Below are positions 11,344 to 54,071 of a stretch of DNA of 64,000 bases, piece by piece. The stretch covers positions 868,001-932,000 of the forward strand of contig NZ_JBBKTU010000001.1 in the NCBI RefSeq assembly GCF_037892605.1. The letters run 5' to 3'. Below the pieces are notes generated by a model. That model had not been told where the DNA came from. It saw nothing but the letters and a program-made list of their open reading frames with translations, and ran no database searches. The stretch comes from Lacibacter sp. H407 (GTDB lineage Bacteria > Bacteroidota > Bacteroidia > Chitinophagales > Chitinophagaceae). The translations under genes and the position numbers were made by a program. How positions within the stretch are numbered: position 1 is the first letter of the stretch; each line of letters begins with the position of its first letter.

Positions 11344-13182
11344 GTGCCGGATATCATTCAATTATTGCCCGATCATATTGCTAACCAGATTGCTGCCGGT
11401 GAGGTAATTCAACGCCCTGCCAGTGCAGTGAAGGAATTATTGGAAAATGCAGTAGATGCAGGTGCAACAGAAATTGAACTGATCATTAATGATGCGGGCA
11501 AACAATTGATCCAGGTAATTGATAATGGCGGTGGCATGAGCGAAACCGATGCACGGATGGCGTTTGAACGCCACGCTACTTCCAAGATCAGAGAAATTGA
11601 AGATCTCTTTCGTATTAAAACCATGGGCTTTCGTGGCGAAGCATTGGCTTCCATTGCTGCTGTTGCACAGGTGGAAGTAAAAACAAAACGTGCAGACGAT
11701 AGTGCGGGCACATTCATTGAAATTGAAAACAGCATTGTGAAACGACAGGAGCCTGTTGCAATGAAAAACGGCACCAGCATTGCCATGAAGAATTTATTCT
11801 TCAATGTTCCTGCACGAAGAAACTTCTTAAAAAGCAATGCAGCAGAGATGCGTCACATTGTGGATGAGTTCATTCGTGTGAGCATGGCGTATCCGGAGAT
11901 TTTCTTTTCACTTTCAGCGAATGGCCAACAGATGTTCCACCTCGATAAAGGAACATTGAAACAACGCATTGTACAATTACTCGGCAATCAATATAATTCG
12001 AAATTAGTATCGGTTGAAGAACAGACCGACTACATGAACATTTTTGGTTTTATCGGCAAACCTGAAACGGCAAAGAAAACAAGAGGCGATCAATACTTTT
12101 TTGTAAACAAGCGTTTCATTAAAAGCGCTTATCTCAATCATGCAGTAGCCGGTGCGTTTCAGGAAATGATCGCTACCGATAGTTTCCCGGCGTATGTGTT
12201 GTTTATTGACCTGGATCCTGCACAGGTGGACATCAACGTTCATCCCACCAAACAGGAAATTAAATTTGAAGATGAAAAGATCGTGTATGCATTTGTACAA
12301 TCAGCAGTGAAGCATGCATTGGCACAGTTCAGCATAACACCTACATTAGATTTTGATCTCGATCCTGCGATTCAACGCCTTGATGCGGTAAGCAAACCAT
12401 TTACCAGCGAACAAAAATCACAGGCATCCTCCTCTTCCTTGTACAATACGTTCACACAAAAACATGCGGCACATAAAATTGATCCGCAGCAGAAAAGTGA
12501 GTTGAAACACTGGAGGGATTTTTATGAACCGGTGAGCAAGTCGACAGTCGATAGTCCACAGTCCACAGTTGGTGCGACTGATTTTTCGTTACTCAACAAT
12601 CAGCAGAAGCTGGTGCCTGATCAGGAGTTTACACAGTTACATCAAACCTATATTGTTGCTTCAACAACAAAAGGTATAATGCTCATTCATCAGCAGAATG
12701 CACATGAACGTGTATTGTATGAACGCTATTTAGCTGCTGCCGATGGAAAAGCCATTGCTACACAACGCAGCTTGTTTCCATCAACATTGCAACTCTCACC
12801 ACAGGATGCAGTGTTGTTACAGGAACTCAGCGATGATCTGCAACTACTCGGCTATCACATTGAGCCGTTTGGAAAAGATACATTTGTGATACAGGGCACG
12901 CCTGCTGATGTAGATCAGGGGAATGAAAGTATGGCCATTGAATTATTGCTGGAACAATTCAAACATTACACAAGTGATCTCAAATTTTCCAAACGTGAAA
13001 AACTGATTCGCTCTTTAGCAAAACAGCACAGCATCAAAGCCGGTAAATCACTTGCGCAAAAAGAAATGAAACAGCTGGTAGAAGATCTTTTTAACTGTGC
13101 ACAACCAAATGCTACCTCCAATGGCTTTCCTGTTTATATGGAATTGAAGAAAGAAGAGTTGGAAAAAATGTTTGGAAGGTAA
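11344..13182 (+). CDS. mutL: DNA mismatch repair protein MutL
   Basis: A 613-residue GHKL ATPase that couples MutS mismatch recognition to strand removal. The ATPase domain shows IANQIAAGEVIQRPASAVKEL (N-terminal helix), ENAVDAGA, DNGGGM and GFRGEALASIAAV. A low-complexity linker (~330-430) contains the heptamer array described separately. The C-terminal dimerisation domain (~430-613) has HQQNAHERVLYE where endonuclease-active MutL has DQHA(X)2E(X)4E: both Glu remain, but the Asp is His and the His is Gln. Whether it still nicks DNA is uncertain. The start is GTG, supported by the AGGAGG and the -7 box. No mutS is in view. Confidence 0.95.
   Translation: MPDIIQLLPDHIANQIAAGEVIQRPASAVKELLENAVDAGATEIELIINDAGKQLIQVIDNGGGMSETDARMAFERHATSKIREIEDLFRIKTMGFRGEALASIAAVAQVEVKTKRADDSAGTFIEIENSIVKRQEPVAMKNGTSIAMKNLFFNVPARRNFLKSNAAEMRHIVDEFIRVSMAYPEIFFSLSANGQQMFHLDKGTLKQRIVQLLGNQYNSKLVSVEEQTDYMNIFGFIGKPETAKKTRGDQYFFVNKRFIKSAYLNHAVAGAFQEMIATDSFPAYVLFIDLDPAQVDINVHPTKQEIKFEDEKIVYAFVQSAVKHALAQFSITPTLDFDLDPAIQRLDAVSKPFTSEQKSQASSSSLYNTFTQKHAAHKIDPQQKSELKHWRDFYEPVSKSTVDSPQSTVGATDFSLLNNQQKLVPDQEFTQLHQTYIVASTTKGIMLIHQQNAHERVLYERYLAAADGKAIATQRSLFPSTLQLSPQDAVLLQELSDDLQLLGYHIEPFGKDTFVIQGTPADVDQGNESMAIELLLEQFKHYTSDLKFSKREKLIRSLAKQHSIKAGKSLAQKEMKQLVEDLFNCAQPNATSNGFPVYMELKKEELEKMFGR
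12541..12568 (+). repeat. Four 7-bp tandem units inside mutL
   Basis: Units TCGACAG, TCGATAG, TCCACAG, TCCACAG in direct succession, then a further T. They encode STVDSPQST in the linker between the ATPase and dimerisation domains. Seven is not a multiple of three, so each unit gained or lost would shift the frame. Confidence 0.85.
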
Positions 13183-13187
13183 TTCTA

Positions 13188-13332
13188 AAGCTGCGTGGCA
13201 GCTTCCCGATTATAGAAAGAATTATTATTGACATGCCGACTCCGTAGGAGTCACCCGTATTTACAGAAGGCTCCTACGGAGCCAACCTTCATTTTATTAA
13301 TATTCCTATAAACAGTACGATCCTGACGGATC
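13188..13332. repeat. Cluster of four REP-like hairpins between mutL and dacB
   Basis: Four perfect stem-loops in 145 bases: AAGCTGC-GTG-GCAGCTT (13188-13204), GACTCC-GTA-GGAGTC (13238-13252), GGCTCC-TAC-GGAGCC (13269-13283) and GATCC-TGAC-GGATC (13319-13332). The second and third are inverted relative to each other (loop GTA versus TAC) and differ by a base-pair swap that keeps the stem. It lies between convergent genes, so it could also help end transcription. Confidence 0.75.
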
Positions 13333-13352
13333 AAAATACAATCAACACCGTT

Positions 13353-14687
13353 TTAATTCTCCCTCCTCACCTGCTGTAAAAATTTCTCAACGGCTCTTCT
13401 TACAGCAACCGGCGATGTATAATGATTATTCACCAGCACCGAGAAGATCAGTAATTTGTTTTTTGGTGTGATGAGAAAACCACTCAATGCCAAATGCCCT
13501 GATAAGGAACCGGTTTTTGCAAAGATCAATCCTGTTTCATCTTTATAATAATTGCGGAGTGTACCTGTATTTCCTGTTGGAAGAATTGTTTTCAATCGTT
13601 CTAACCCAAATTCATCTTTCATTTTTCCCAGCAACCATACAAAATCTTCAGGCGTAAATAAATTGTAACGACTCAAGCCGCTGCCATCTACCCATTTTGG
13701 TTTTTGCGGAAAGCCACTCAGTTCATTTTGCAACAAATGAGCGATCAACTTTTGTTCATCCATTTCACCAAAGAGTTGGTTGCTCACCATCATCAATGTT
13801 TGTTCCGCAAAAAAATTATCACTGCGATGCATAAGTGGCTTAAACATCGAATCAACGGGCTGCGAGTACACTGTATTTAATTCTGAAATGGTGAGCGATT
13901 CAGTTGTAATGGACGTATGTAACGTATCCTTCAACAACTCCAATGCAGCCTGCAATCCATTGGTCACAAACGGCACTTCCAGTTCACGCTTCATTTCTTT
14001 TCCTTCGATGATCGTGTATTTATTTTCAGTACGGGTACGTGTCACATCAAACACATTTGCTTTACCCGGTTTAAACTGTACATCCCAGTTTACTTCTGGA
14101 TCAGTAAATATAAACGCCGATGTGTCTTGTCTTCCATCCCGTTCTTCAATCGTCCGTTGCTGGATCCACTTGATATAATTTCCGTAAACCGGCATCGGGC
14201 TCCGCTCCGTCATATAATAACTGGCATAATCATCCCAGGCCCAACCAAACCCTAGGGCTTCCGTTTTCCAGTTATGATTATTCATCACCATTGGCTTGTT
14301 CTGCTGTTTGAGAAAATCAAACACAGGATGTTGCTTGTAATCGATATGCAAAAAAGTAGGATCACCGGTTGGCTGCAGGTACAATGTATCGTTCTGTTCT
14401 TTGTATTGAATACCCGGCAACTTTTCGCCAAGATATTTCAAACCGGCATATAACGTCGGAATCTTTGTATTACTGGCCGGTACAAAATATTTATTGCTGT
14501 TGTGCTGATGAATAAATTGCTTCGTGTCTGTATCATACACAGCAATGCCAACAAACGCATTGGTCAATGCAGTATCATTGATCAGATTCTGCTGCAGTTC
14601 AGATTGACGCACTTGTTTTTGTGCTGTACACGAAAAAAAGAAAACCGATAAACAAAGAAGAAGAACCTTTTGGTTGACGAGGATCAT
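13353..14687 (-). CDS. dacB: D-Ala-D-Ala carboxypeptidase/endopeptidase (PBP4 type)
   Basis: A 444-residue peptidase S13 family protein that trims or cleaves peptidoglycan cross-links in the periplasm. It has a lipoprotein-like signal with FFSC (Cys19). Active-site motifs: SNTK (Ser71-Lys74), SGLSRYN (about residue 335) and KTGSLSG (about residue 395), with the S13 insertion between the first two. The length matches the family. It is transcribed convergently with mutL and divergently from the GreA-like gene. Together with the upstream NagZ fusion it makes this a cell-wall turnover neighbourhood. Confidence 0.93.
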   Translation of the reverse strand: MILVNQKVLLLCLSVFFFSCTAQKQVRQSELQQNLINDTALTNAFVGIAVYDTDTKQFIHQHNSNKYFVPASNTKIPTLYAGLKYLGEKLPGIQYKEQNDTLYLQPTGDPTFLHIDYKQHPVFDFLKQQNKPMVMNNHNWKTEALGFGWAWDDYASYYMTERSPMPVYGNYIKWIQQRTIEERDGRQDTSAFIFTDPEVNWDVQFKPGKANVFDVTRTRTENKYTIIEGKEMKRELEVPFVTNGLQAALELLKDTLHTSITTESLTISELNTVYSQPVDSMFKPLMHRSDNFFAEQTLMMVSNQLFGEMDEQKLIAHLLQNELSGFPQKPKWVDGSGLSRYNLFTPEDFVWLLGKMKDEFGLERLKTILPTGNTGTLRNYYKDETGLIFAKTGSLSGHLALSGFLITPKNKLLIFSVLVNNHYTSPVAVRRAVEKFLQQVRREN

Positions 14688-14785
14688 CAGCTATTATTTT
14701 GCTGATAAATATACATTCTTTCTGTTTCTGTTCACCGGTTCACGAATTCCGGTTGAATCGTTTTTCTTCTCTACATTTGAATGAC

Positions 14786-15235
14786 ATGTCCTTCAAAGAA
14801 AACGTATACCGCCAATGTGCAGCCATCATTCAAACCAAGATCAGTTTGCTGCAAAAGCAATTACATGATTTAACCGACAGTGCAGGAAACGAAACCAAAC
14901 GCACAGCAGGCGATAAACATGAAACGGCATTGGCGATGCTGCAGATTGAACAGGAGAATAACAGCCGCCAGTTGCAGGATGCATTGCAGCAAAAAGCAGT
15001 ACTTGAAAAAATTGATCCAACCCTGCAAACAGAACAAGCTGTTAGAGGCAGCATCATCACGACCAACAAAGGAATTTTCTTTCTCAGTCTTGGTTTGGGA
15101 AAAATAACGATCAACGAAAAAACAGTGATCGCACTCTCGCCCGATGCACCGTTGGGGAAATTATTGTTGATGAAGAAAGCGGGTGATGAATTTCATTTCA
15201 ATAATATTTTCTATCAGATTCTATCAATAGAATAG
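14786..15235 (+). CDS. Small GreA-like coiled-coil protein
   Basis: A 149-residue protein. The N-terminal half is a predicted antiparallel coiled coil containing ETKRTAGDKHETALAMLQ (~33-50), recalling the GreA/GreB N-terminus (AGDxxE...). The C-terminal half is beta-rich, ending FHFNNIFYQILSIE, like the GreA C-terminal fold. Close relatives in Bacteroidota are, to my recollection, often labelled 3-oxoacyl-ACP synthase, which this sequence does not support (no thiolase fold, far too short). Binding to the RNA polymerase secondary channel is a hypothesis. The ATG before SFKENVY is chosen; the 29-codon upstream extension looks non-coding. Confidence 0.7.
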   Translation: MSFKENVYRQCAAIIQTKISLLQKQLHDLTDSAGNETKRTAGDKHETALAMLQIEQENNSRQLQDALQQKAVLEKIDPTLQTEQAVRGSIITTNKGIFFLSLGLGKITINEKTVIALSPDAPLGKLLLMKKAGDEFHFNNIFYQILSIE

Positions 15236-15288
15236 CCTGATATCGATGCCTTTCGGGGACTCATTCCGTGAAAGACGTATTGCGTAAA

Positions 15289-15933
15289 TTATTCTGGAAC
15301 ATTGAACCAAAACTGGTAAATAGTTCTATCGGTATTAAATAGGTTTATCCACTTCGAAAAATAGAGATGATATAAGTTTTTATTAAACTGATCGTTTACA
15401 AGTGCAAACTGTACCTGATCATATAACAAAGAATCAGCAGCATAATAGTACTTCGCAAATAGTAGACCGAAATTATTTGAGGTCTCCTTTTTTGTACCAT
15501 ATCCATCTAAAATAAAAGATAGTTTCTCAAATGCTGCAATTGCTTTTTGCTTGCTATCAAATGTAAAAGACAAGTATAGGTCGTAAATTGATGGCGAGTA
15601 GTGCTTTGATTTCTTCATGGTTATCTCAAACGTACAATATAAATATTCTGCTTCGAAATAAGGATGTTTGGGAATAAACAGTGAATGTTTGCTGTACGTT
15701 AACGTGTCAGGCTTTGGATTTGCCTCATAAGAAACTGTCCATTGTGCGCTCGTATCGGGACTTTCTACGAGCACTGAACTATATGATTTCGCAAAATCGT
15801 AAACTACAGGATGGGCAGAATCAGTAAACAAATGGAAATACATTCTTTTGCCAAAGTCACCAAGGGTTGCAGTTTGGGCACTCGACGTAGTTGTATAAAT
15901 CAGCAAAAAAGCTATTGGTATTTTTCTAAACAT
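15289..15933 (-). CDS. Secreted hypothetical protein
   Basis: A 214-residue protein with a clear signal peptide (~1-19, ending SSAQ). The mature part is rich in Tyr, Phe, Ser and Lys and seems all-beta or mixed; no known motif was found. The frame continues 17 codons upstream, but the ATG preceding the signal sequence is the natural start. It follows the arginase-fold gene on the same strand at a gap of about 20 bases, so may be co-transcribed. Composition is AT-richer than the flanking conserved genes. Function unknown. Confidence 0.6.
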   Translation of the reverse strand: MFRKIPIAFLLIYTTTSSAQTATLGDFGKRMYFHLFTDSAHPVVYDFAKSYSSVLVESPDTSAQWTVSYEANPKPDTLTYSKHSLFIPKHPYFEAEYLYCTFEITMKKSKHYSPSIYDLYLSFTFDSKQKAIAAFEKLSFILDGYGTKKETSNNFGLLFAKYYYAADSLLYDQVQFALVNDQFNKNLYHLYFSKWINLFNTDRTIYQFWFNVPE

Positions 15934-15956
15934 AGGTATTATAATTAAAAAATTTA

Positions 15957-17093: not shown

Positions 17094-17111
17094 GTAATAT
17101 TGTTTCGGTGG

Positions 17112-17119
17112 CAAACATA
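17112..17119 (-). promoter_or_regulatory. -7 box for the arginase-fold gene
   Basis: TATGTTTG on the minus strand, 18 bases before the ATG at 17093. The expected -33 region falls in the adjacent heptamer array and has no TTTG. Confidence 0.45.
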
Positions 17120-17124
17120 AGAAA

Positions 17125-17159
17125 GATGTACGATGTATGAAGTACGATGTAGGATGTAA
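17125..17159. repeat. Heptamer tandem array, five units
   Basis: GATGTAC, GATGTAT, GAAGTAC, GATGTAG and GATGTAA in exact 7-bp register, located in the divergent spacer between the arginase-fold gene and pheS. Confidence 0.85.
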
Positions 17160-17240: not shown

Positions 17241-17244
17241 CAGC

Positions 17245-19302: not shown

Positions 19303-20151
19303 ATGGTTCACTCAATTTGCGTTTGCGGTGCAGGAACAATGGGCAGCGGTATTGCACAAGCTGCTGCACAAAGCGGCATTTATACACTGCTGTTTGATCT
19401 CAATAAAGAAGTGTTGCAAAAAGCAGAAATCTCCATCAATGCTAATCTGGATAGTTTAGTTTCAAAAGAAAAAATAACGGAACAACAACGCACTACTATA
19501 AAAGGCAATCTTCAATACATCAGTGATATCAACAATTGTATTGCTGATGTGATCATTGAAGCTATCATTGAAAAACCGGAAGCAAAAATTTCCTTGTTCA
19601 ATCAACTGGCAGAGATCAATCACAGTGATACAATTTTCGCCAGCAACACATCCTCTCTTTCCATTTCATTGTTACAACAATCAATACAGCAACCACAACG
19701 GGTGGCAGGTTTGCATTTCTTCAACCCCGCTACGATCATGAAATTAGTGGAAGTGGTAAAAGGCGATCAAACCAAAGAAGAAGTGATCGAACAGTTAATT
19801 GCGTTAACAAAGCAGATGAACAAAACACCTGTCATCTGCAAAGATGCACCGGGTTTTATCGTAAACCGTGTTGCCCGACCTTATTACATTGAATCATTAA
19901 AATTAGTTGAGGACGGCGTTGCCGATTTTGCAACGGTGGATGCATTGATGGAAGCCAGTGGTTTTAAAATGGGTCCGTTCAAACTCATGGATCTTATTGG
20001 TAACGATATCAACTATGCTGTAAGCTGCAGCGTATATGAACAGTTAGGTAACCCTGAACGTTTACAACCATCACCCATACAAAAAGAAAAAGTGGAATCA
20101 AATAAGCTTGGCCGCAAAACCGGCGAGGGCTATTACAAGTACAACGGATAA
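19303..20151 (+). CDS. 3-hydroxyacyl-CoA (3-hydroxybutyryl-CoA) dehydrogenase
   Basis: A 282-residue NAD-dependent dehydrogenase converting 3-hydroxyacyl-CoA to 3-ketoacyl-CoA in fatty-acid oxidation or butyrate-type metabolism. Seen: the Rossmann motif GAGTMGSGIAQAAA (~6-19), ASNTSSLSI (~115-123), the catalytic HFFNPA (His ~140), and KDAPGFIVNRV (~183-193) opening the C-terminal domain. The length and single-domain form match the stand-alone Hbd/PaaH type rather than the FadB fusion. The end GEGYYKY is family-typical. The following epimerase-like gene begins about 75 bases later. Confidence 0.93.
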   Translation: MVHSICVCGAGTMGSGIAQAAAQSGIYTLLFDLNKEVLQKAEISINANLDSLVSKEKITEQQRTTIKGNLQYISDINNCIADVIIEAIIEKPEAKISLFNQLAEINHSDTIFASNTSSLSISLLQQSIQQPQRVAGLHFFNPATIMKLVEVVKGDQTKEEVIEQLIALTKQMNKTPVICKDAPGFIVNRVARPYYIESLKLVEDGVADFATVDALMEASGFKMGPFKLMDLIGNDINYAVSCSVYEQLGNPERLQPSPIQKEKVESNKLGRKTGEGYYKYNG

Positions 20152-20178
20152 TTGTATAATTGATAGTTGATAATCGAA
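20151..20178. repeat. Heptamer tandem array, four units
   Basis: ATTGTAT, AATTGAT, AGTTGAT and AATCGAA in 7-bp register, beginning at the last base of the preceding stop codon. A weaker oppositely oriented run (TTTTACA, TTTTCCA, TTATTAA...) follows at ~20196-20226, up to the next start. Confidence 0.7.
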
Positions 20179-22649: not shown

Positions 22650-22677
22650 AGCTGCGATCGTTTAGCTGTGAGCTAAC
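22650..22677. repeat. Heptamer tandem array, four degenerate units
   Basis: AGCTGCG, ATCGTTT, AGCTGTG and AGCTAAC in 7-bp register, starting a few bases after the preceding stop codon. Confidence 0.6.
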
Positions 22678-25259: not shown

Positions 25260-25300
25260 TTCAAGAGACCCGGTTTGACAGGGTACTATTCCTGTAGCAG

Positions 25301-25377
25301 GAGTTAAGATTTGGGAATTAGGAGCTGGGATTTGTGAGTTGTAGCTTACACCTTGTACCTTATGCCTTTTACCTTGT
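25301..25377. repeat. Opposed heptamer arrays, eleven units
   Basis: Six units of the form GANNTNN (GAGTTAA, GATTTGG, GAATTAG, GAGCTGG, GATTTGT, GAGTTGT) are followed in the same 7-bp register by five units AGCTTAC, ACCTTGT, ACCTTAT, GCCTTTT and ACCTTGT. The second half reads like the first class on the other strand. It lies just upstream of the gldH promoter. Confidence 0.85.
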
Positions 25378-25399
25378 CTCTTTTTCCTTTCATGTTTTC

Positions 25400-25432
25400 T
25401 TTGGATTTTGTTTGCTCAGGTATTTACATTTG
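25400..25432 (+). promoter_or_regulatory. Two-box Bacteroidota promoter for gldH
   Basis: -33 TTTG (25400-25403), a 21-base spacer and -7 TACATTTG (25425-25432): a full match to TTTG-N19-21-TAnnTTTG. The predicted start site is near 25438, downstream of the ATGs at 25353 and 25392. Confidence 0.7.
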
Positions 25433-35896: not shown

Positions 35897-36016
35897 CTTA
35901 AACATATGCGGTTGCATTGGAATTGCTTCGTTTAATTGTATACAGCTGATAGACTCATTTCTGTTCCTGACATAGATGACTCAACAACAGTACAGAATCG
36001 CTGGTAAAATAACTGC

Positions 36017-36051
36017 TAACTTGTAACTGATAGGTTGTACCTTATATGTTG
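36017..36051. repeat. Heptamer tandem array, five units
   Basis: TAACTTG, TAACTGA, TAGGTTG, TACCTTA and TATGTTG in 7-bp register, in the spacer before the TPR lipoprotein. The rest of that 215-base spacer shows nothing clear. Confidence 0.7.
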
Positions 36052-39635: not shown

Positions 39636-39743
39636 GCGTGTACAAAATTAGCGGAAGAGTGGCGTTGAGCAGATGCCGTTGATGTAAGTTGATGTTAAAA
39701 CGACCGTTGATTTAATTGATTGATTGATATGAATGATGTGTTC

Positions 39744-39831
39744 AACAGGCAATTGGCAATAAGCAACAGGCAAATCTGTATTTATTTGCGTCCATCTGTG
39801 GCCAATCATCAAATCATCATCTCATCAGCGG
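39744..39831. repeat. Two heptamer arrays between batD and the SDR gene
   Basis: First array, 39744-39771: AACAGGC, AATTGGC, AATAAGC, AACAGGC. Second, weaker array, 39804-39831: AATCATC, AAATCAT, CATCTCA, TCAGCGG, abutting the stop codon of the SDR gene. Confidence 0.7.
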
Positions 39832-40548
39832 TCAAAGATCCCCCAACTGCGGCCGGATGGTGATTTCTTCCACACAGGCCTGTGGCGAAAGTTGTGAACT
39901 GGCGTATACCAATTTGGCAATATCGTCTGCTTCCATGATCCGTTTGGTAGAATTATCATAATCGCCCCATGAATCAGTCAATACGGCACCCGGGAAAACA
40001 GAAGTTACTTTGATCAGATGCGGTTTCATTTCTTCCCGCAGATTTTTACTGAACCCATGCATGGCATATTTGCTGATGCTGTAGGCACCGCCGTTGTTAT
40101 AGGCATGCAACGAAGCAATGGAACACATGTTGAAAATGTGGCCACGTGAACCACTTACAGGACTTTGTTTCATCATCTGCGGCAATAACTTTCGGGTAAG
40201 GTGATAGGCGCTGTACAAATTGGTAGCGATCATTTCTTCCAGAAAACCGTCTTCTTCGTTATGTACGCTCCCAAGTAAAAAATTACCGGCGTTATTTACC
40301 AACACATCAATGTTGAAACTATTGTCGAGCACCCATTTTCCGAAATTATCAACTTCCTCCCGTTTGCTGAGATCTCTTGCTTTGGCTTTGATCTTTATGC
40401 CGGGATATTTATCCTGCAACTCGGCCATGGTTTTGTAGATCGCTACTTCACTTTTCGAACTGAGATACAATGCATGCCCGTTCGCCGCAAAAATTTCGGC
40501 GATGGCTTTACCAATTCCTCTTGATGCACCGGTTATTACAACGTTCAT
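39832..40548 (-). CDS. Short-chain dehydrogenase/reductase
   Basis: A 238-residue classical SDR. Seen: the NAD(P)-binding TGASRGIGKAIAE (~6-18), NNAGNFLLG (~90), catalytic Ser in NMCSIAS (~141), and Tyr/Lys in YSISKYAMHGF (Tyr ~155, Lys ~159), then FPGAVLTDSW. The set is complete. The substrate is unknown; FabG-like ketoacyl reductases and sugar or sterol dehydrogenases share this pattern. It is divergent from yjjG, the 80-base spacer between them being filled with heptamer arrays. Confidence 0.9.
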   Translation of the reverse strand: MNVVITGASRGIGKAIAEIFAANGHALYLSSKSEVAIYKTMAELQDKYPGIKIKAKARDLSKREEVDNFGKWVLDNSFNIDVLVNNAGNFLLGSVHNEEDGFLEEMIATNLYSAYHLTRKLLPQMMKQSPVSGSRGHIFNMCSIASLHAYNNGGAYSISKYAMHGFSKNLREEMKPHLIKVTSVFPGAVLTDSWGDYDNSTKRIMEADDIAKLVYASSQLSPQACVEEITIRPQLGDL

Positions 40549-40559
40549 AAAAAAAGTTT

Positions 40560-40620
40560 GAGGTACGAAGTACGAACTTTTTTTGCTCTAAACCGTACCT
40601 CTACCTTTGTACTTCGTATT
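40560..40620. repeat. Opposed heptamer arrays in the SDR-yjjG divergent spacer
   Basis: Left half (40560-40580): GAGGTAC, GAAGTAC, GAACTTT. The right half, read on the minus strand from 40619, gives TACGAAG, TACAAAG, GTAGAGG, TACGG. The two halves carry the same GAAGTAC-like unit in opposite directions. Confidence 0.75.
40602..40609 (+). promoter_or_regulatory. -7 box for yjjG inside the heptamer array
   Basis: TACCTTTG, a full TAnnTTTG match, 19 bases before the yjjG ATG. A TTTG at 40582-40585 is 16 bases upstream, shorter than the usual 19-21. Confidence 0.5.
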
Positions 40621-40628
40621 TTGCAATT

Positions 40629-41327
40629 ATGAACTATCGTCACTTGTTTTTCGACCTCGACCATACCCTTTGGGATTTTGATGCCAATGCTATGGAAACG
40701 TTGGCGGATGTATATAAGGATCTCGATCTGCAAACAGCCGGCATCAATGACTTTGATCTGTTTTGCAAACACTACCTGCACCACAATGCTGTACTATGGG
40801 ATCGCTATCATCACGGATACATTACAGCCGAGGAACTGAAGTGGAAACGGATGTGGCGCACCTTACTTGAATTTAAAAATGGCAGCGAAGAACTGGCTCG
40901 TAAAATGAGCGGCTATTTCCTTGAGGTATTACCCACAAAACAAAACCTGTTTCCATATACCCATGAAATTCTGCAACATTTAAAAGAGAAGGAATACAAG
41001 CTTCACCTCATTACCAATGGTTTTGAAAAAACACAATGGCGAAAATTAGACAACAGCAAACTGGGACAATATTTTGAAGAAGTGATCACCAGCGAAACCA
41101 GCAACAGTGTAAAACCAAACAAAGAAATTTTTGAATACGCCCTTCGTATTACCGGTGCTGAGTTAAAACAAAGCATTATGATCGGTGATAATTTAGATGC
41201 CGATATTAAAGGCGCCATTAACGCAGGAATGGATTCGATTTTTGTGAATCATATCAATGCAGAGTTGAAAGGAATAAAGCCAACGTATGTGATTACGCAT
41301 TTGAGGGAATTGGAGGAGATATTTTAG
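40629..41327 (+). CDS. yjjG: YjjG-type noncanonical pyrimidine nucleotidase (HAD family)
   Basis: A 232-residue HAD-superfamily phosphatase; YjjG removes phosphate from modified pyrimidine nucleotides, keeping them out of DNA. Seen: motif I FFDLDHTLWDFD (nucleophile Asp ~9), a helical cap with LFCKHYLHHNAVLWDRYHHG, motif II LHLITNGFEKTQ (~122), motif III Lys in SVKPNKEIF (~158), and motif IV MIGDNLDADIKGA (~180). This matches the YjjG/YfnB subfamily common in Bacteroidota. Substrate by family only. Confidence 0.9.
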   Translation: MNYRHLFFDLDHTLWDFDANAMETLADVYKDLDLQTAGINDFDLFCKHYLHHNAVLWDRYHHGYITAEELKWKRMWRTLLEFKNGSEELARKMSGYFLEVLPTKQNLFPYTHEILQHLKEKEYKLHLITNGFEKTQWRKLDNSKLGQYFEEVITSETSNSVKPNKEIFEYALRITGAELKQSIMIGDNLDADIKGAINAGMDSIFVNHINAELKGIKPTYVITHLRELEEIF

Positions 41328-41370
41328 TGAGTGGTGAAGCGAGTGGGTCTCCGATAGTGAACTAATCTAC

Positions 41371-41398
41371 ACGCCGAGGTCGGTGTCCCCACCGACCG
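41371..41398 (+). repeat. Left REP of RAYT element 1
   Basis: Starts ACGCCGA, then hairpin arms GGTCGGTG and CACCGACC around TCCC. Its reverse complement is identical to 41975-42002. Confidence 0.9.
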
Positions 41399-41405
41399 AA
41401 CTCAA

Positions 41406-41966
41406 TCAAAATGCATCCATATAATGCGTAAGAATTTCAAATTCATCAAACCCTGATTCATAAAATCTTGCTGATGAAAATCGATAGTCTTCTGGTAATC
41501 GACATAAGTTCCAATGATCTTGCAAAGGGTTGTAATGTAAATAATTCAACTTTTGCTCTGCGACATCTTTGCTGAAAATATGCACAGCCAGTGGATCTCG
41601 TTGCCAAAAATTATACTTTCGATCTGATGCTGAAACAGAAAATTGAAGTAGCTTCTCTGGATTTTCTGCTACCAGCTTTTTTTGAAATTGATGAGAAGTG
41701 AATTTTTCAAAGCTATTCTTGGGAAACTCTTTTCCATTCATGGCAAATTGTTGCCACAGAAGATGGATATGATTCGGCATTATCACATACCCATAAATTT
41801 CAACCAATTTTTTATCGCATAGCCATTTAAAACTGGAGATAATTATTTCTTTGTATGCGTCTTCTTTTAAAAGATGTGCCCAATTCCTGATTGTGATTGT
41901 CCAGAAATAAACAGCACTTAACTCTGTATAGGAATTTCGGTGTCCTTTATAGTTAGTATCAGACAT
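41406..41966 (-). CDS. REP-associated tyrosine transposase (HUH/Y1 family)
   Basis: A 186-residue IS200/RAYT-like protein that in this family binds and cuts single-stranded REP hairpins. Seen: GYVIMPNHIHLLW (~58-70, HUH motif HIH), SFEKFTSHQFQKKL (~85-98), the region where Y1 enzymes carry the catalytic Tyr but here Phe appears, WQRDPLAVHIFS (~125) and YLHYNPLQDHWNL with EDYRFSSARFYE near the end, all typical of the Bacteroidota branch. Start at the ATG before SDTNYKG; the eight codons upstream fall in the REP. It is intact, with no frameshift. Confidence 0.88.
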   Translation of the reverse strand: MSDTNYKGHRNSYTELSAVYFWTITIRNWAHLLKEDAYKEIIISSFKWLCDKKLVEIYGYVIMPNHIHLLWQQFAMNGKEFPKNSFEKFTSHQFQKKLVAENPEKLLQFSVSASDRKYNFWQRDPLAVHIFSKDVAEQKLNYLHYNPLQDHWNLCRLPEDYRFSSARFYESGFDEFEILTHYMDAF

Positions 41967-41974
41967 TTTGATTG

Positions 41975-42002
41975 CGGTCGGTGGGGACACCGACCTCGGC
42001 GT
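41975..42002 (-). repeat. Right REP of RAYT element 1
   Basis: An exact inverted copy of 41371-41398, just upstream of the transposase start, so it may also influence transposase expression. Confidence 0.9.
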
Positions 42003-42045
42003 AGCGGTTCATACTTCTTTCAGGAATAATAGAACCGAAACACTG

Positions 42046-42080
42046 ACCATTCAATACTCACCCCTCACCATCAATATTCA
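42046..42080. repeat. Heptamer tandem array overlapping the 3' end of psd
   Basis: ACCATTC, AATACTC, ACCCCTC, ACCATCA and ATATTCA in 7-bp register. The last units include the psd stop codon and final codons. Confidence 0.7.
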
Positions 42081-42727
42081 GCCAGCACCGTAACGCCTGC
42101 CTGCACTTTCTCATTCAACTTTACATTGATCTTTGTACCGGGAGGCAACAACAGATCTACACGTGAACCGAATTTGATAAAACCAAGTTCACCGCCCTGC
42201 TCTACTTTTTGTCCGGGTTGGAGATAGTTTACGATGCGTTTGGCAACAGCTCCTGCAATTTGTTTTACAAGGATCACAATACGATCGTTACTCAACACCA
42301 CACTATGACGTTCATTTTCGGTGGATGATTTCGGATTCCAGGCAACGAGGTATTTACCTTTGTGGTATTGCGAATAATTCACTTCACCTGCAATAGGATT
42401 TACATTCACATGTACATTCGCCGGGCTCATAAACACACTTAACTGAATGCGTTTGTCTTTGAAATATTCAACATCGGTTATTTCTTCGATCACTACCACT
42501 TTGCCATCGCAGGGACTGTAGATCGCATGTTCGTTGGGTGGTGTACTACGCTTCGGAATACGAAAGAAGGAAACAATAAACAGGAAGAAAAATAAGGTTA
42601 CTGCAAAAATGAGCCAGGATAATATGGGCAACCCCGGGCTTACAAAATTGAACACCAGCAGGTTGATAACGATAAATAAAACGGCTGCAATGGAAATACT
42701 TTTGAATCCTTCTCTGTGAATGGTCAT
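42071..42727 (-). CDS. psd: Phosphatidylserine decarboxylase family protein
   Basis: A 218-residue proenzyme making phosphatidylethanolamine from phosphatidylserine. There is a membrane hairpin (~10-55), then SPCDGKVVVIEEI (~72), FMSPANVHVNVNPIAG (~101-116), ERHSVVLSN, and the self-cleavage site IKFGSRVDLLLP, where Gly-Ser (Ser ~188) is split to form the pyruvoyl group. Size and motif fit the short (archaeal/Bacteroidota-type) class. The start is the ATG before TIHREGF. It is the last gene of a minus-strand run with a lipoprotein, cdsA and a CPBP protease; pssA is not in the window. Confidence 0.93.
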   Translation of the reverse strand: MTIHREGFKSISIAAVLFIVINLLVFNFVSPGLPILSWLIFAVTLFFFLFIVSFFRIPKRSTPPNEHAIYSPCDGKVVVIEEITDVEYFKDKRIQLSVFMSPANVHVNVNPIAGEVNYSQYHKGKYLVAWNPKSSTENERHSVVLSNDRIVILVKQIAGAVAKRIVNYLQPGQKVEQGGELGFIKFGSRVDLLLPPGTKINVKLNEKVQAGVTVLAEY

Positions 42728-47148: not shown

Positions 47149-47161
47149 ACACATCACCATC

Positions 47162-49019: not shown

Positions 49020-49089
49020 TGTTATTCTAATGATGAACGGAGCGTCGCCAATGGCGGTGAATGATAGTTGAACGATGACAACCAAAAAT

Positions 49090-49722: not shown

Positions 49723-49726
49723 GTAG

Positions 49727-50407
49727 CTATTGTTCGATTTCTTTCAACATCTGTTCACTGGTTGGAGAAACAGAAGGATCAAAATAATGCGTAAGAATTC
49801 CTTCTTCGTTTACGAGGTACTTCGAAAAATTCCAGCTTGGCTGTTTCCCATTCCATCCATTCTTGGTTGAATCGGTAAGCCATTTGAATACTTCGTTCTG
49901 CGTTTCACTTTTTACAACCGAACTTTTTTTCATCAACGGAAATGTAACGCCAAAGTTGACTTTGCAAAATTGTGCGATCTCTTCATCACTTCCTTTTTCC
50001 TGTTCTTTAAAATCATTGGCAGGGAAACCGAGGATCACCAGTTTATTCTCAAATTTTTTCTGGAGCTGTTGCAGCTCATCATACTGCCCGGTGTAACCAC
50101 AATTGCTGGCGGTATTTACCAACAACACTTTCTTTCCTTTCAAGGATGAAAAGTCGTACGTAGTCCCATTGTTCAAAATACCCTTGAGTGAATGGAACGG
50201 AACGGCCGGCTTCTGGTGTTCATTTGCCAACGCATCGGTGTTTTTACCAATCAGTTTTGTAAAAAATATCCATGCCGGGTAAACTGCTTTTAATACTTTT
50301 TGTCTTGTTGTCATACCTGCACTGTTTCGGTTTACATAAAAAAAATAACTCATCGCCACTATAGCGATCATCAATAAAACAACGGTAACACGTTTAAGTT
50401 TACGCAT
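49727..50407 (-). CDS. Membrane-anchored glutathione peroxidase-like protein
   Basis: A 226-residue GPx-family thiol peroxidase with an added N-terminus: a membrane helix (~6-24) and a ~45-residue linker before the catalytic domain. Cys103 in NTASNCGYT is peroxidatic; FPANDFKEQEKG gives the Gln, and PSWNFSKYL the Trp-Asn. QFC supplies a possible resolving Cys. It is about half identical by eye to the secreted GPx at 3.2-3.7 kb, so the genome has two envelope peroxidases with different anchoring. First seven bases after the aldehyde dehydrogenase gene; probably the same transcript. Confidence 0.9.
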   Translation of the reverse strand: MRKLKRVTVVLLMIAIVAMSYFFYVNRNSAGMTTRQKVLKAVYPAWIFFTKLIGKNTDALANEHQKPAVPFHSLKGILNNGTTYDFSSLKGKKVLLVNTASNCGYTGQYDELQQLQKKFENKLVILGFPANDFKEQEKGSDEEIAQFCKVNFGVTFPLMKKSSVVKSETQNEVFKWLTDSTKNGWNGKQPSWNFSKYLVNEEGILTHYFDPSVSPTSEQMLKEIEQ

Positions 50408-50413
50408 GCTGTA

Positions 50414-51799
50414 TTATTTTCTTCCCAATGCCAAACGCCATAATCGAAGTTTGGATCTGTTAAACGGCGGATACCTGAAAAATGGTTCAAACCAATTGGC
50501 TTTTTTTACAACACCTTTGTAATGTGTAAATGTATCGAATGAGAATTTACCCAAATGTCCGCCATGGCCGCTTGTACCAATTCCTCCAAATGGTATACTA
50601 TGGTTTCCCAATTGATAGATGGTTTCGTTGATACAACCTGCTCCGAAACTGATATTCTCAATAAAGAAGCGCTGGTTTGTTTTGGAGGTGCTGAATACAT
50701 ATACCGCCAACGGATTTGGATTCAAAGCGATCAATTGCAACACTTCACTGTTTTCTTTATAAGAAAACACCGGCAATACCGGACCGAATATTTCTTCTTT
50801 CATTACTGTTGCATCTGGTTTCACTTCATCCATGATGGTTGGACCAATATGTCTGCTTGCTTCATTTACATCACCTCCATATACGATCTTTCCTTCTTTC
50901 AAATATTTTACAATGGACTGGAACCGTTTTGCATTGATAATACATCCATAATTATCATTTGCTGCACGGTCTGTACCATACGATTGTTCAATTGTTCCAA
51001 TAATGCTGTGGATCAGTTTATCTTTTACACTTTCATGCACCACCAAATAATCCGGAGCCACACAGCTTTGCCCGCAGTTGAGCAACTTCCCCCATACAAT
51101 TCGTTTCGCTGCCATTTTCAGATCGGCACTTGCATCTACAATGCACGGGCTTTTTCCGCCCAACTCCAACGATACCGGTGATAAATGTTTTGCCGCCATC
51201 GCCATGATCTTTTTTCCAATCTCTGTACCTCCTGTAAAAAACACATGCCCAAAATGAAACTGATCAAGCAATGCTGTAACAACCACTGCACCTTCGCCTG
51301 CAACTGCATGTATAAATTCCGTTTCAAAATTTTCATTGATGAGTTGCTCCAGTACGGCAGATGTATGTGCACTTAATTCCGAATGCTTAATGAGCACTGT
51401 ATTACCCGCAGCAATAGCACCTGCCACTGCCCGGTAGGTGAGCAACACAGGATAATTCCAGGGTGATATCACCAATACATTCCCAACAGGTTCAGGATAC
51501 ATTTTTGTAACTGAGGGAAGTAGATACAATGGCGTATCAACCAATTGTGGCTGCATCCACTGCCGAACGCCCCGCAACTGCACACGGATCTCTTCATACA
51601 CAGGACCAAGCTCTGTCATATAAACTTCCTGTGCATGCTTACCCAGATCTTTCAACAATGCTTCTTCGATCTTTTTTTCATTGTTGCGTAAAACGGCTTC
51701 CAGTTTTTTTAACTGTTGCCTGCGAAAGGCAAGCGAACGGGTTGCACCTGATTTGTAGAAAGCAACCTGTGCATCGTATATGGATTGATATGAATTCAT
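50414..51799 (-). CDS. Aldehyde dehydrogenase, class 3 type
   Basis: A 461-residue NAD(P)-dependent aldehyde dehydrogenase. Catalytic Cys246 is in NCGQSCVAPDY and general-base Glu212 in LELGGKSP. The NAD-binding region has ISPWNYPVLL (~111-120), FTGGTEIGK (~188) and EEIFGPVLPV (~340). The short length and C-terminal FGGIGTSGHGGHLGKFSFDTFTH in pieces put it with class 3 (ALDH3, fatty-aldehyde) enzymes. It leads the minus-strand run with GPx, PAQR and MBL genes, suggesting a lipid-peroxide/aldehyde detoxification unit (inference). Confidence 0.93.
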   Translation of the reverse strand: MNSYQSIYDAQVAFYKSGATRSLAFRRQQLKKLEAVLRNNEKKIEEALLKDLGKHAQEVYMTELGPVYEEIRVQLRGVRQWMQPQLVDTPLYLLPSVTKMYPEPVGNVLVISPWNYPVLLTYRAVAGAIAAGNTVLIKHSELSAHTSAVLEQLINENFETEFIHAVAGEGAVVVTALLDQFHFGHVFFTGGTEIGKKIMAMAAKHLSPVSLELGGKSPCIVDASADLKMAAKRIVWGKLLNCGQSCVAPDYLVVHESVKDKLIHSIIGTIEQSYGTDRAANDNYGCIINAKRFQSIVKYLKEGKIVYGGDVNEASRHIGPTIMDEVKPDATVMKEEIFGPVLPVFSYKENSEVLQLIALNPNPLAVYVFSTSKTNQRFFIENISFGAGCINETIYQLGNHSIPFGGIGTSGHGGHLGKFSFDTFTHYKGVVKKANWFEPFFRYPPFNRSKLRLWRLALGRK

Positions 51800-51917
51800 G
51801 AATGGCCTTCCGGTTTTGATAATTTTAAAGCAATCGATGAAGGATGGTCCCCTTTCTACAAATGTACCAAAGCTTCCTGTTCTTTCTGTTACGTAAATGA
51901 ATAGCTACCTTCGCTGT

Positions 51918-52355
51918 ATGACGGACGAATATTTCATGCAACAGGCACTTAAAGAAGCAGTGATCGCTTATGAAGAAGGCGAAGTACCGGTGGGTGCCGT
52001 AGTGGTAATGGAAGGAAAAATTATTGCACGTGGTCATAACATGACGGAGAAACTCAATGACCCCACAGCACATGCGGAGATGATTGCGTTAACATCAGCC
52101 TTCAGTCATATCGGTGCAAAATATTTACCAGGTGCAACATTGTATGTAACGGTTGAACCTTGTTTGATGTGTGCAGGTGCGTTATACTGGAGCAAACTGA
52201 CCCGCATTGTATGGGGAGCTGACGATGAAAAGAACGGACACAAACGCATTACGAAAGATGAATCTCCATTTCATCAAAAGGCAGAAATAAACACCGGAAT
52301 TTTAAAAGACGAGTGCGCCCGTTTAATGAAAGATTTCTTTGCAGCAAAACGATAG
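51918..52355 (+). CDS. tadA: tRNA adenosine(34) deaminase
   Basis: A 145-residue zinc deaminase converting A34 to inosine in tRNA-Arg(ACG). Zn ligands and proton shuttle: His52-x-Glu54 in TAHAEMIAL and Cys82/Cys85 in EPCLMCAGAL. The N-terminal helix YFMQQALKEAVIAYEEGEVPVGAV fits TadA rather than cytosine or guanine deaminases. A TACCTTCG box ends four bases before the ATG, so the mRNA may be leaderless. A second gene starts two bases after the stop. Confidence 0.93.
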   Translation: MTDEYFMQQALKEAVIAYEEGEVPVGAVVVMEGKIIARGHNMTEKLNDPTAHAEMIALTSAFSHIGAKYLPGATLYVTVEPCLMCAGALYWSKLTRIVWGADDEKNGHKRITKDESPFHQKAEINTGILKDECARLMKDFFAAKR

Positions 52356-52357
52356 CC

Positions 52358-52660
52358 ATGGCAAAAGCAGTTGCTAAAACAATCACAGTTACACATCCTG
52401 TAACAGGAACAGAACGGAAATTTGATGCCGCTATTTACGAACCGTTCAAAGCGGCCATTCTGCAAAGTCTCAAAGGCAGTAAGGGTAAAACGTTTTCTGA
52501 ATTAACGGATGACGTGGTAAAGATCATCCGCAAACAAATGCCGGGCTTTACCAAATCGATTCCCTGGTACACCATCTCCATCCGTCTCGATCTTGAAACA
52601 AGAGGGCTTGTAGAAACCTTTGTTGAGAAAGGGAAAAAGCTCAACCGTCTTGCAAAATAA
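52358..52660 (+). CDS. Small DUF6958-like protein
   Basis: A 100-residue basic protein. Its C-terminal half, with KGKTFSELTDDVVKIIRKQM, IPWYTISIRLDLETRGLVE, looks like a winged-helix-type fold and resembles proteins I recall as DUF6958. The ATG two bases after tadA is chosen over an upstream frame start that overlaps tadA. No catalytic residues; nucleic-acid binding is possible but unproven. Co-transcription with tadA is likely. Confidence 0.65.
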   Translation: MAKAVAKTITVTHPVTGTERKFDAAIYEPFKAAILQSLKGSKGKTFSELTDDVVKIIRKQMPGFTKSIPWYTISIRLDLETRGLVETFVEKGKKLNRLAK

Positions 52661-52777
52661 ACTTCAGCATTTCGGCAATAGCTTTCTTTAACAAAACCTT
52701 TTTACCTCCTCTTACAACTTCCGGTTTTTGCAGCCATCTATATGGTTGTAGCTGTAAAGCAACGGCTGCATAAGCAT

Positions 52778-53140
52778 ATGAAAAAAAGCATTGGTTTTGT
52801 TATCCTGAGCATGTTGTTGCTTACGGCTTGTCGCAAAGCTGATCTGCCAACAGCACCCATTGACGAATCAGTATGGTTACAAAAGGAACGGGGTGTGGTT
52901 GTGTTTGCTGATTTCGATTGTAACTACTTTGTAATTGAAACACGTAACGGGTACACCGTTGCTGAAAACTGGTCGTTCCGTCCCTACACCGGTGATGTTT
53001 TGTATGGTGACCTCAGTTTCTACGGACTTAAAAATGTATATAACCGGAGCCGTGGTGCATTAATGGCCATTGATGTGGAAGATTACTGGCTAAGCTATTT
53101 TGCCGCACAGGACCGTATCAGCTGGTACTGTTCTCAATAA
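52778..53140 (+). CDS. Small lipoprotein, hypothetical
   Basis: A 120-residue protein with a standard lipoprotein signal (lipobox LTAC, Cys ~18). The mature part (~100 residues) is beta-rich and contains VVVFADFDCNYFVIETRNGY and a Cys near the C-terminus that could pair with it. The ATG before KKSIGFV is chosen; 12 upstream codons lack a signal. No family recognised. Confidence 0.6.
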   Translation: MKKSIGFVILSMLLLTACRKADLPTAPIDESVWLQKERGVVVFADFDCNYFVIETRNGYTVAENWSFRPYTGDVLYGDLSFYGLKNVYNRSRGALMAIDVEDYWLSYFAAQDRISWYCSQ

Positions 53141-53300
53141 ACCCAAGTGTCCTCTATGGAGAAAGGGAATGCAGCAGTGCGTTCCTTTCTTTTTTGTATG
53201 GGTTGCCAATCTTTCATGAGTTGCACCACTTAATTACAAATTGCAAGGTTGGCAACCCTAAAAAACTTGTCGGCATGCTAATTGCCATCTACTTAATCCA

Positions 53301-53332
53301 TCTGCATTTTAAATTATCTGTTTGTACCTTTG
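53301..53332 (+). promoter_or_regulatory. Promoter for the superoxide dismutase gene
   Basis: -7 box TACCTTTG (53325-53332), full match, with TCTG (53301-53304) at 20 bases upstream as an imperfect -33. The leader to the ATG is about 37 bases. Confidence 0.6.
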
Positions 53333-53374
53333 CCTTCCAATTAACAATTTCGTAAATTTTAAAACTTACAGAAC

Positions 53375-53974
53375 ATGGCATTTACATTAGCACCTCTTCC
53401 GTATGCGCATGATGCATTGGAACCCCATATCGACACAACCACTATGCAAATACATCATGGTAAACACCACCAGGCTTATGTTGATAATCTCAACAAAGCA
53501 GTGGCAGGTACTGAGCACGAAAGCAAATCGCTGGAAGAACTGGTAGCAGTAGCCGGCAGTATTTCTCCTGCTGTACGTAACAATGGTGGTGGTCACTGGA
53601 ATCACACATTTTTCTGGGAATCATTGGCACCGAATGCAGGCGGCACACCAACAGGTGCTTTGGCTGATGCAATTACTGCTGCTTTTGGATCGTTCGATGC
53701 ATTCAAAGAAAAATTTGCAGCAGCAGGTATGACACGTTTCGGAAGTGGCTGGGCCTGGTTGATCGTGAAAGATGGCAAATTGGAAGTTTCATCAACTCCT
53801 AATCAGGATAATCCATTGATGGATGTGGCCGAAGTAAAAGGCACACCGATCCTTGGAGCTGATGTGTGGGAGCATGCTTACTACTTAAAGTATCAGAACC
53901 GCCGTGCTGATTACTTGGCTGCATTCTGGAACGTAGTAAACTGGAGTAAAGTAGCAGAACGCTTCGGTAAATAA
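53375..53974 (+). CDS. sodA: Fe/Mn superoxide dismutase
   Basis: A 199-residue cytoplasmic superoxide dismutase. Metal ligands: His27 ([14 protein letters not shown]), His ~78 ([11 protein letters not shown]), and Asp and His in [19 protein letters not shown] (~160). Gly in [10 protein letters not shown] (~120) and the Gln/Gly patterns used to tell Fe from Mn enzymes do not allow a firm metal call by eye; cambialistic enzymes occur in this phylum. No signal peptide. It is a single-gene unit with its own promoter and a strong terminator. Confidence 0.96.
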
Positions 53975-53998
53975 GAAAGAATATACTTTGTAATAATT

Positions 53999-54028
53999 AA
54001 AAGGCTCGCCATAATTGGCGAGCCTTTT
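53999..54028. terminator. Bidirectional terminator between sodA and tag
   Basis: A perfect 12-bp stem AAAAGGCTCGCC with its complement, loop ATAATT, A run on one side and T run on the other. It serves the convergent sodA and tag genes. Confidence 0.93.
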
Positions 54029-54036
54029 AATTATCA

Positions 54037-54071
54037 ATCAGATCATTTGCATCATTTCATCCCATCATCTG
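54037..54071. repeat. Weak heptamer array at the 3' end of tag
   Basis: AATCAGA, TCATTTG, CATCATT, TCATCCC and ATCATCT in approximate 7-bp register, reaching into the tag stop codon. Similar in sequence to 39804-39831. Confidence 0.45.

Follow-up and report, generated by a model that had tools for sequence, protein, structure and literature searches.

Dispersed tandem heptamer arrays at gene ends in Lacibacter sp. H407, and related arrays with other periods in its relatives

Degenerate tandem arrays, mostly of heptamers, are dispersed between the genes of Lacibacter sp. H407 (Chitinophagaceae). Here we describe them in a window of 64,000 nucleotides (contig NZ_JBBKTU010000001.1; G000:C1:868001-932000 of a genome of 4.87 Mb), in further parts of the same genome, in 14 genomes of the same genus (labels of the G001 type denote sister or relative genomes) and in more distant relatives. 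The arrays keep their period, lie at gene ends, share units between loci, lose similarity as units lie further apart, and turn over rapidly; at one locus two sister species differ by three units. The chief evidence against a universal 7-bp step is that the period goes with the unit family. We give a probability of roughly one half (0.5) to the reading that the arrays belong to a few genome-specific families with units of 7-11 bp, which arise by local duplication and putative copying between spacers and mostly have no conserved function.

Genes were called with a simple script that retained the longest non-overlapping open reading frames (ORFs) of at least 80 or 90 amino acids with ATG starts; GTG and TTG starts were additionally allowed for the global autocorrelation, the local-tract counts and one spacer scan. 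Autocorrelation and tract counts were obtained from 37,090 bp of intergenic DNA out of 464 kb (the window and 400 kb sampled elsewhere in the genome), and all comparisons used one genome per species. A first-pass annotation of the window had set an excess of lag 7 over lags 5, 6, 8 and 9 as the test of its heptamer arrays. Among local tracts this excess is clear, with 20 tracts scoring at least 15 at lag 7 (shuffle mean 0.1) and 8 at lag 14, compared with 0-3 at each other lag from 3 to 13. It is less clear against lag 6 in the global autocorrelation, which yielded z values of 5.1 at lag 7, 6.3 at lag 14 and 3.5 at lag 21, next to 1.5 at lag 5, 3.9 at lag 6, 1.0 at lag 8, 2.6 at lag 9 and -0.7 at lag 10. 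Lags 5, 8, 10, 11 and 13 reached at most 1.5, lags 6, 9, 12 and 15 were raised (2.4 to 3.9), and lags 3 and 4 (11.3 and 6.4) stood above lag 7. The shuffles and the other lags reject a chance origin, with the reservation that the global autocorrelation is also up at lags 3, 4 and 6. Of the 52 lag-7 tracts that scored at least 13 in 864 kb of the genome, 15 lay mostly within called ORFs.

The constancy of the 7-bp step, on which the first-pass annotation had built, did not extend to the relatives. Seven is not a universal step because some of them have arrays with periods of 8, 9 or 11 bp that form separate families with distinct units, in two genomes beside 7-bp families. The set of relatives consisted of 80 named loci (1.35 Mb) picked as YicC relatives; the closest named match to the YicC of the window was a Bacteroidetes metagenome-assembled genome (70%), followed by Agriterribacter humi (66%), in a list that may omit records of the H407 genome itself, and the remaining relatives were mostly Chitinophagaceae or Chitinophagales. 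The best lag of the arrays at these loci was 7 in 87 cases, 8 in 29, 11 in 9, 12 in 8, 9 in 7, 13 in 4, 6 in 4, 10 in 3 and 5 in 2. At least 34 of the 80 loci had no counted lag-7 tract, and arrays are therefore far from universal. Three relatives were picked because their first 20-kb loci had 9-, 11- or 8-bp arrays; having been chosen for their arrays, they prove that other periods exist, not how frequent these are. Sphingobacteriales 46-32 (G408; 221 kb, in stretches partly picked around three known TTTAAAGGG matches) had 15 arrays at 9 bp, 11 at 7, 8 at 8 and 2 at 14; Chitinophaga filiformis (G409; 121 kb) had 8 tracts at 11 bp in three places and none at 7; and Pinibacter aurantiacus (G410; 121 kb) had 52 at 7, 22 at 8, 2 at 14 and 1 each at 9 and 11. 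The corresponding numbers for 800 kb of the H407 genome were 25 at 7, 7 at 8, 4 at 14 and 7 at other periods.

These counts bear on the predominance of heptamers among the long tandem repeats of bacteria, for which a 7-nt contact of the polymerase has been proposed as the reason (an idea attributed to Mrazek 2007 by MacGregor 2015 and Rehm 2015; PMC4679880 and PMC4692102). A generic 7-nt slippage step would make heptamers from any sequence, with units that differ because their seeds do. Lag 7 indeed dominates both in the H407 genome and at the relatives' loci, but the presence of 11-bp arrays alone in G409, of 9-, 7- and 8-bp arrays in G408 and of 7- and 8-bp arrays in G410, together with the recurrence of units across loci above shuffled expectation, makes such a step an unlikely source. 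Since the relatives separate period from polymerase step, the idea becomes testable by comparison.

Two of these relatives also contain unusually regular arrays. Sphingobacteriales 46-32 has exact or near-exact 8-bp arrays at L090:1001-1049 and from 1059, with six copies of CATCAGCA and about 14 of CACATCAG, a possible variable-number tandem repeat marker. In Pinibacter aurantiacus, near-exact ACTCTCA/TCTCAAC heptamer arrays with at least 11 copies (L254:2780 and L255:3837), unlike the worn arrays of the window genome, suggest recent activity.

The first-pass annotation had also taken the combination of a changing unit and a constant period as a sign of a mechanism rather than of copying. This argument is not supported in view of identical units (rotation allowed) at unlinked loci, which were found in 12 of 1108 pairs lying more than 1 kb apart in the H407 genome, where shuffling gave a mean of 2.0 and a highest value of 6 in 50 shuffles. 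Between genomes, with units in outward orientation and long arrays divided into halves or units (as also for the similarities by distance below), 79 of 19,897 pairs matched, orthologous arrays of the genus included, compared with 26 after shuffling and 26 with one unit reversed; for the H407 genome against the family genomes alone, there were 10 matches in 4608 unit pairs, where 3.6 were expected. The commonest units were AAGTACG, AGATTTC, AGTGGTG and AAGGCAC. Three GANGTAC units in succession occurred in 7 of 395 Bacteroidota genomes (H407 included), representing 7 genera, and the reversed control in 1. Identity was also frequent among the 8-mers of G410 (57 of 231 pairs vs 1.4) and the 9-mers of G408 (10 of 91 pairs vs 0.03), pairs from the same spacer being included in both counts; the 8-bp arrays of G410 share the units AACTGAAT and AAAATTTG (8 of 22 each), and the 9-bp unit TTTAAAGGG/TATAAAGGG of G408 is doubled at 15 places in the genome.

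According to the reading favoured here, each array would be a copy of one of a few genome-specific tandem-unit families, mostly of 7 bp in this genome. Units would be gained and lost by local duplication or loss during DNA synthesis, in a slippage-like manner. Mismatch repair deals poorly with units longer than about 4 bp and would probably be blind to changes of this kind. Arrays would decay by point mutation and would be tolerated in spacers alone; because of this restriction and the compactness of the genome, they would extend as far as the stop or start codon itself. New loci may be seeded when a unit sequence is copied from an existing array by a recombination or repair route, and most arrays are probably neutral. 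Local duplication is in line with the fall in unit similarity with distance, from 0.66 through 0.60, 0.53 and 0.44 to 0.37 over unit distances 1-5 in the arrays of H407 and its genus (the first value is too high because of the lag-7 search) and from 0.69 to 0.43 over the same distances in the family arrays. Such a fall is what would be seen if neighbouring units, and not a fixed template, were copied, and the first-pass description of a mostly intergenic period-7 class compatible with local duplication stands.

In the sister genomes, the spacers of the window contain related arrays, different arrays or none. Turnover was quantified in 277 spacers compared between 670 kb of G003 and 672 kb of G011, whose proteins have a median identity of 93.9%. 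An array was present in one species only in 8 of these spacers, in both in 15 and in neither in 238, with 16 in between; at least two of the rows (649099 and 309833) resemble terminator or T-rich tracts, not arrays. Arrays change faster than other spacer DNA: conservation was 0.708 in array spacers (n=18) and 0.831 in the others (n=154; p=0.0015), and bases inside the G003 arrays were conserved to 0.675, compared with 0.786 in the rest of the same spacers. In spacer 494668, G011 is longer than G003 by three units (21 bp) and otherwise alignable by eye.

Several observations weigh against the favoured reading. No peak at 7 bp is seen among the gaps between G003 and G011, where this length accounts for 2 of 69 gaps across the 14 array spacers and for 8 of 297 across 108 others; copy-number change in sevens is thus rejected as the main difference between sister species. 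Of the 8 spacers in which a single species had an array, 5 differed in length by a multiple of 7, a result that is at most suggestive and to some extent post hoc, three of these five having prompted the test; the proportion was 2 of 4 in later rows of this kind (p 0.10), 0 of 8 where both species had arrays and 7 of 45 in controls. Identity between G003 and G011 exceeded 95% in 2 of 18 array spacers, namely 142876 (all 72 bp identical) and 325635 (96%), but also in 19 of 154 controls. G001 and G002 have the same sequence in the array upstream of pheS, a GAAGTAC/GAGGTAA variant of that in the window, but have diverged in the remaining spacer. In the family set, similarity climbs again past a unit distance of 10, where few very long arrays count. 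Slippage alone, finally, would predict neither the recurrence of units nor the outward-G polarity described below. The divergent spacer 142876, which has AAATCT-type heptamers, is a candidate for a functional array.

The position of the arrays is not random. Among 50 testable arrays from H407 and six sister genomes, 32 lay within 10 bp of a gene boundary, compared with 16.4 after random placing (z=5.3). All 81 arrays are divided almost evenly between 3' ends (41) and 5' ends (40); 21 of the former overrun the stop codon and 7 of the latter the called start. For gene annotation this means that array DNA overruns stop codons and sits inside over-long ORF calls. On the outward strand, read away from the gene, G outnumbered C in 36 of the near-boundary array pieces from 864 kb of the H407 genome, with the opposite in 6 and 2 ties; tracts lying more than 60% within called ORFs had been removed (15 of 52), among them the window array at 17113, which is in fact intergenic. 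At the 80 loci of relatives, the outward count was 52 to 25 with 3 ties. Over the first 10 bp past stop codons, arrays had a G skew of 0.62 and array-free controls one of 0.00; the final 20 bases of the coding sequence were also G-richer beside arrays (0.52 and 0.50 vs 0.15 and 0.31). Upstream of start codons, successive 10-bp steps gave 0.25, 0.23 and 0.13 in array-free spacers and 0.12, 0.45 and 0.33 in spacers with arrays. At 3' ends the outward-G polarity is array-specific and may in part originate from seeds at the end of the coding sequence. At 5' ends it is for the most part background because array-free spacers there already have a similar excess; as a pure property of arrays it is rejected for the same reason.

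A further regularity is a head-to-head layout, in which the left-hand units bear G and the right-hand units bear C. It was recognized by eye at 25299-25410 and 40554-40637 in the window and at L002, L003, L008 and L011. Among the 22 long arrays of the H407 genome, 6 switched from G to C, 1 from C to G and 15 were of other kinds; the numbers in G408 were 7, 0 and 12, and 5 of the 21 long arrays of G410 switched from C to G and 2 from G to C.

Gene-end position, head-to-head pairs and the few near-unchanged arrays would also be explained if the arrays were selected elements, that is, iterated binding sites or mRNA hairpins at gene ends with a part in termination, stability or translation. Folding is better in the array spacers of the family set (mean z -2.38, n=48) than in controls (-1.28, n=150 drawn; p=0.008), and inverted 5-mers are shared more between the ends of one spacer (7.06) than between ends of different spacers (4.37 +- 0.29). 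In the H407 genome, however, array spacers show no excess folding (z -1.27, n=24, vs -1.60, n=150 drawn; p=0.59), which rejects a hairpin function there, and arm sharing is within noise (4.98 vs 4.42 +- 0.39). The sharing of a unit by the arms of one spacer, considered as a feature of the arrays, was discarded: it is clear in the family set and not significant in H407, and some of it occurs in array-free spacers (5.68 vs 4.41 in the family). Since the arrays also change faster than other spacer DNA and are found next to unrelated genes, at their 5' as well as their 3' ends, selection for such functions is a doubtful explanation of the class.

A very improbable alternative is that broken 3' ends in spacers are extended by a telomerase-like, repeat-making activity and rejoined, so that G-rich arrays point out of both genes. 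The G-richness of the outward strand in H407 and its relatives, head-to-head arrays of one unit (such as TTTAAAGGG..CCCTTTAAA), the preference for a G-to-C switch in the long arrays of H407 and G408, and the genome-specific unit and period all agree with it. The decay of similarity with distance is unlike that of copies of a single template, however, the array-free spacers at 5' ends have a similar outward G excess, and the long arrays of G410 lean the other way. The reverse transcriptase domain RVT_1 was found in 6 of the 14 genus genomes and in G409 (two matches), but had no match in the array-bearing genomes G000, G011, G408 and G410, and a reverse transcriptase is thus rejected as the maker. 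The idea that the arrays are elements like repetitive extragenic palindromes (REPs) or their inverted pairs (REPINs), moved by REP-associated tyrosine (Y1) transposases (RAYTs), is hardly credible and a RAYT is rejected as mover: a RAYT-like gene with flanking inverted repeats (41406-41990) does adjoin the weak array at 42039, and inverted pairs recall REPINs, but the protein is unmatched in 4 of the 14 genus genomes (G002, G003, G007 and G011), three of which (G002, G003 and G011) carry arrays, Y1_Tnp is unmatched in G011 and G409, and the repeats around the gene are by eye palindromic, not heptameric.

Dispersed tandem heptamers of cyanobacteria are named short tandemly repeated repetitive (STRR) sequences. 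The H407 arrays, with their intergenic excess of period 7, are of the same general kind; three heptanucleotides in Calothrix are cited in PMC4692102. The first-pass annotation knew of no description in Bacteroidota, but direct repeats of TAACTGA are on record from Beggiatoaceae, Cyanobacteria and five Bacteroidetes, in some of them next to other heptamer arrays (PMC4679880). With these repeats the H407 arrays share the 7-bp unit and the mostly intergenic position; the array at 36010-36051 in the window even consists of TAACTGC, TAACTTG and TAACTGA, and an 8-bp relative of this type of unit, AACTGAAT, is present in G410. They are nevertheless not TAACTGA repeats in the sense of PMC4679880, because that window array is the only one of the type and contains TAACTGA exactly once, the remaining arrays of the window are built of different units, many unit families occur, and stop codons are used as often as start codons. 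The long simple sequence repeats of Mrazek 2007 (as cited in PMC4679880 and PMC4692102) are likewise tandem, with units of 5-11 nt of which 7 is the commonest in most genomes. The arrays described here are degenerate, with three exact copies in 2 and two exact copies in 12 of 51 array pieces from H407, so that surveys of exact copies would miss nearly all of them; the survey in PMC4060949, which required three copies for 7-mers, would accept those 2.

The closest parallel in layout is found in the G-rich GGGAATC and GGGGA(C/T)T heptamers of Xanthomonas and Nostoc, for which no function was found (PMC4692102). Their G-rich strand points away from the nearest gene. In Xanthomonas the mean distance is 28 nt to the 5' ORF and 160 nt to the following one; two strains have 70 and 75 inverted pairs, which are few in Nostoc, and both length and sequence change between sister species (PMC4692102). 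In H407 the G-rich strand likewise points away from the nearest gene, inverted pairs occur and sister species differ. The gene-end layout is thus already known with units that form G-quadruplexes (PMC4692102), whereas a GGG tract on either strand is present in 3 of 51 consensus units from H407, 1 of 48 from the genus and 3 of 110 from the family, and the H407 units are mostly not capable of forming quadruplexes. Quadruplex formation is therefore unlikely as a shared cause, and a Xanthomonas-like layout with such units argues against quadruplexes as the general cause. The kind of array is known from other bacteria; the rules of position in H407 and the sister families with 8-, 9- or 11-base units contribute to testing the origin of such DNA. 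Among the matches listed in a literature search that covered few subscription journals, there was no account of period differences between families or of gene-end polarity in Bacteroidota. Tentatively, the arrays may represent self-spreading non-coding DNA without a known transposase. It would consist, in each genome, of a few families that differ in unit and period (7, 8, 9 or 11 bp); new arrays would be seeded precisely where genes end, in many cases as inverted pairs, and would later give way to another family at that site. One branch of this class would be formed by the heptamers of cyanobacteria, Xanthomonas and Beggiatoaceae.

The arrays of the window are listed in Table 1. Each stretch was tested together with 60 bp on either side against 1000 dinucleotide shuffles. 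The first-pass annotation had reported about ten loci with 7-bp arrays; 8 of its 11 stretches hold, four of them strongly and four moderately, and those at 22650, 39804 and 54037 (P 0.76) are unsupported as period 7. Tandem Repeats Finder (TRF) gave rows of period 7 or 14 beginning at 12539, 17125, 20147, 25339, 25350, 31388, 36010, 39176 and 39743, and rows of other periods at 39804 (8), 42046 (20) and 54042 (9). At 22650 a worn array may have been seen, because AGCT-type arrays lie in the same spacer of G001 and G002.

Table 1. Tandem arrays in the window; P values and shuffle counts refer to lag 7.
Positions	Strand	Units	Context	Evidence
12539-12569	+	AGTCGAC AGTCGAT AGTCCAC AGTCCAC AGT	In gene, mutL linker; mutL 11278-13182 (+)	Score 18.6; 0/1000 shuffles; MutL domains by Pfam
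17113-17158	+	GATGTAC/GAAGTAC	Divergent spacer, arginase-family gene (-, start 17093) and pheS (start 17245)	Score 19.2; 0/1000 shuffles; genes by Pfam
20147-20177	+	GATAATT/GATAGTT	Continues from stop codon (20149-20151) of 3-hydroxyacyl-CoA dehydrogenase gene	P 0.006 (20156-20177); TRF period 7; gene by Pfam
22650-22677	+	AGCTGCG/AGCTGTG type, worn	After stop of gene ending 22643	P 0.48; alone not significant
25299-25410	+	AGGAGTT, GGGATTT (G-bearing), then GTACCTT (C-bearing)	After yicC, towards gldH; longest array of the window	Score 29.4 (lag 7), 32.8 (lag 14); 0/1000 shuffles; YicC, GldH by Pfam
36010-36051	+	TAACTGC/TAACTTG/TAACTGA		Best period 14 (lag-14 score 17.2; TRF period 14); P 0.004 (36010-36050)
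39743-39773	+	CAACAGG/CAATTGG		Score 13.2; 0/1000 shuffles
39804-39827	+	AATCATCA		Period 8, not 7: score 12.8 (lag 8), 3.6 (lag 7); TRF period 8; P 0.62
40554-40637	.	Left GAGGTAC GAAGTAC GAAC; right GTACCTC..GTACTTC GTATTTT	Head-to-head pair, divergent spacer	P 0.010; best tract 40605-40637
42039-42089	+	ACCATTC/ACTCACC, weak	Beside end of phosphatidylserine decarboxylase gene	P 0.022 (42039-42069); TRF period 20; gene by Pfam

The arrays lie in spacers, abut stop codons and in one case are part of a gene, as the first-pass annotation had noted; the last case is the array in the mutL linker. Its number of units is by eye the same in G001 and G002, in a place where the reading frame limits change. 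The array before pheS is intergenic although long ORF calls cover it, and the start of the divergent gene was set by comparison with G001 and G002. Arrays were seen by eye in the yicC-gldH spacer of 4 of 12 relatives (G003, G011, G009 and G010), with differing units or copy numbers, and none in the other 8. For the array at 39743-39773, counterparts of the CAATAGG type are present in other spacers of G003 and G011. The spacer at 40548-40629 has GAAGTAC units in the window and, by eye, in G009, and ATTTCAG-type units at both ends in G001 and G002 and at one end in G003, G011 and G005. The window has no match to an Rfam family at the gathering score and hence no known structured RNA.

The mutL linker differs among species, with the heptamer array in the window, G001 and G002; in G005 its position is occupied by a palindromic stretch of the CCCCCAACCCCTGAAGGGG type. 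At 41325-41350, from the end of a haloacid dehalogenase (HAD) hydrolase gene (stop 41327), the window reads TGAGTGG TGAAGCG AGTGGGT or similar, which by eye resembles another worn gene-end array. The RAYT-like protein encoded at 41406-41990 (- strand) matches the NCBIfam model REP_Tyr_transpos (E 1e-18) and Pfam Y1_Tnp (E 0.0009), both below the cut-off. On both sides of its gene, at about 41370-41399 and 41974-42003, palindromic repeats of the GGTCGGTGGGGACACCGACC type lie in inverted orientation, a REPtron-like arrangement, and an 82% identical copy of the protein is present in G010.

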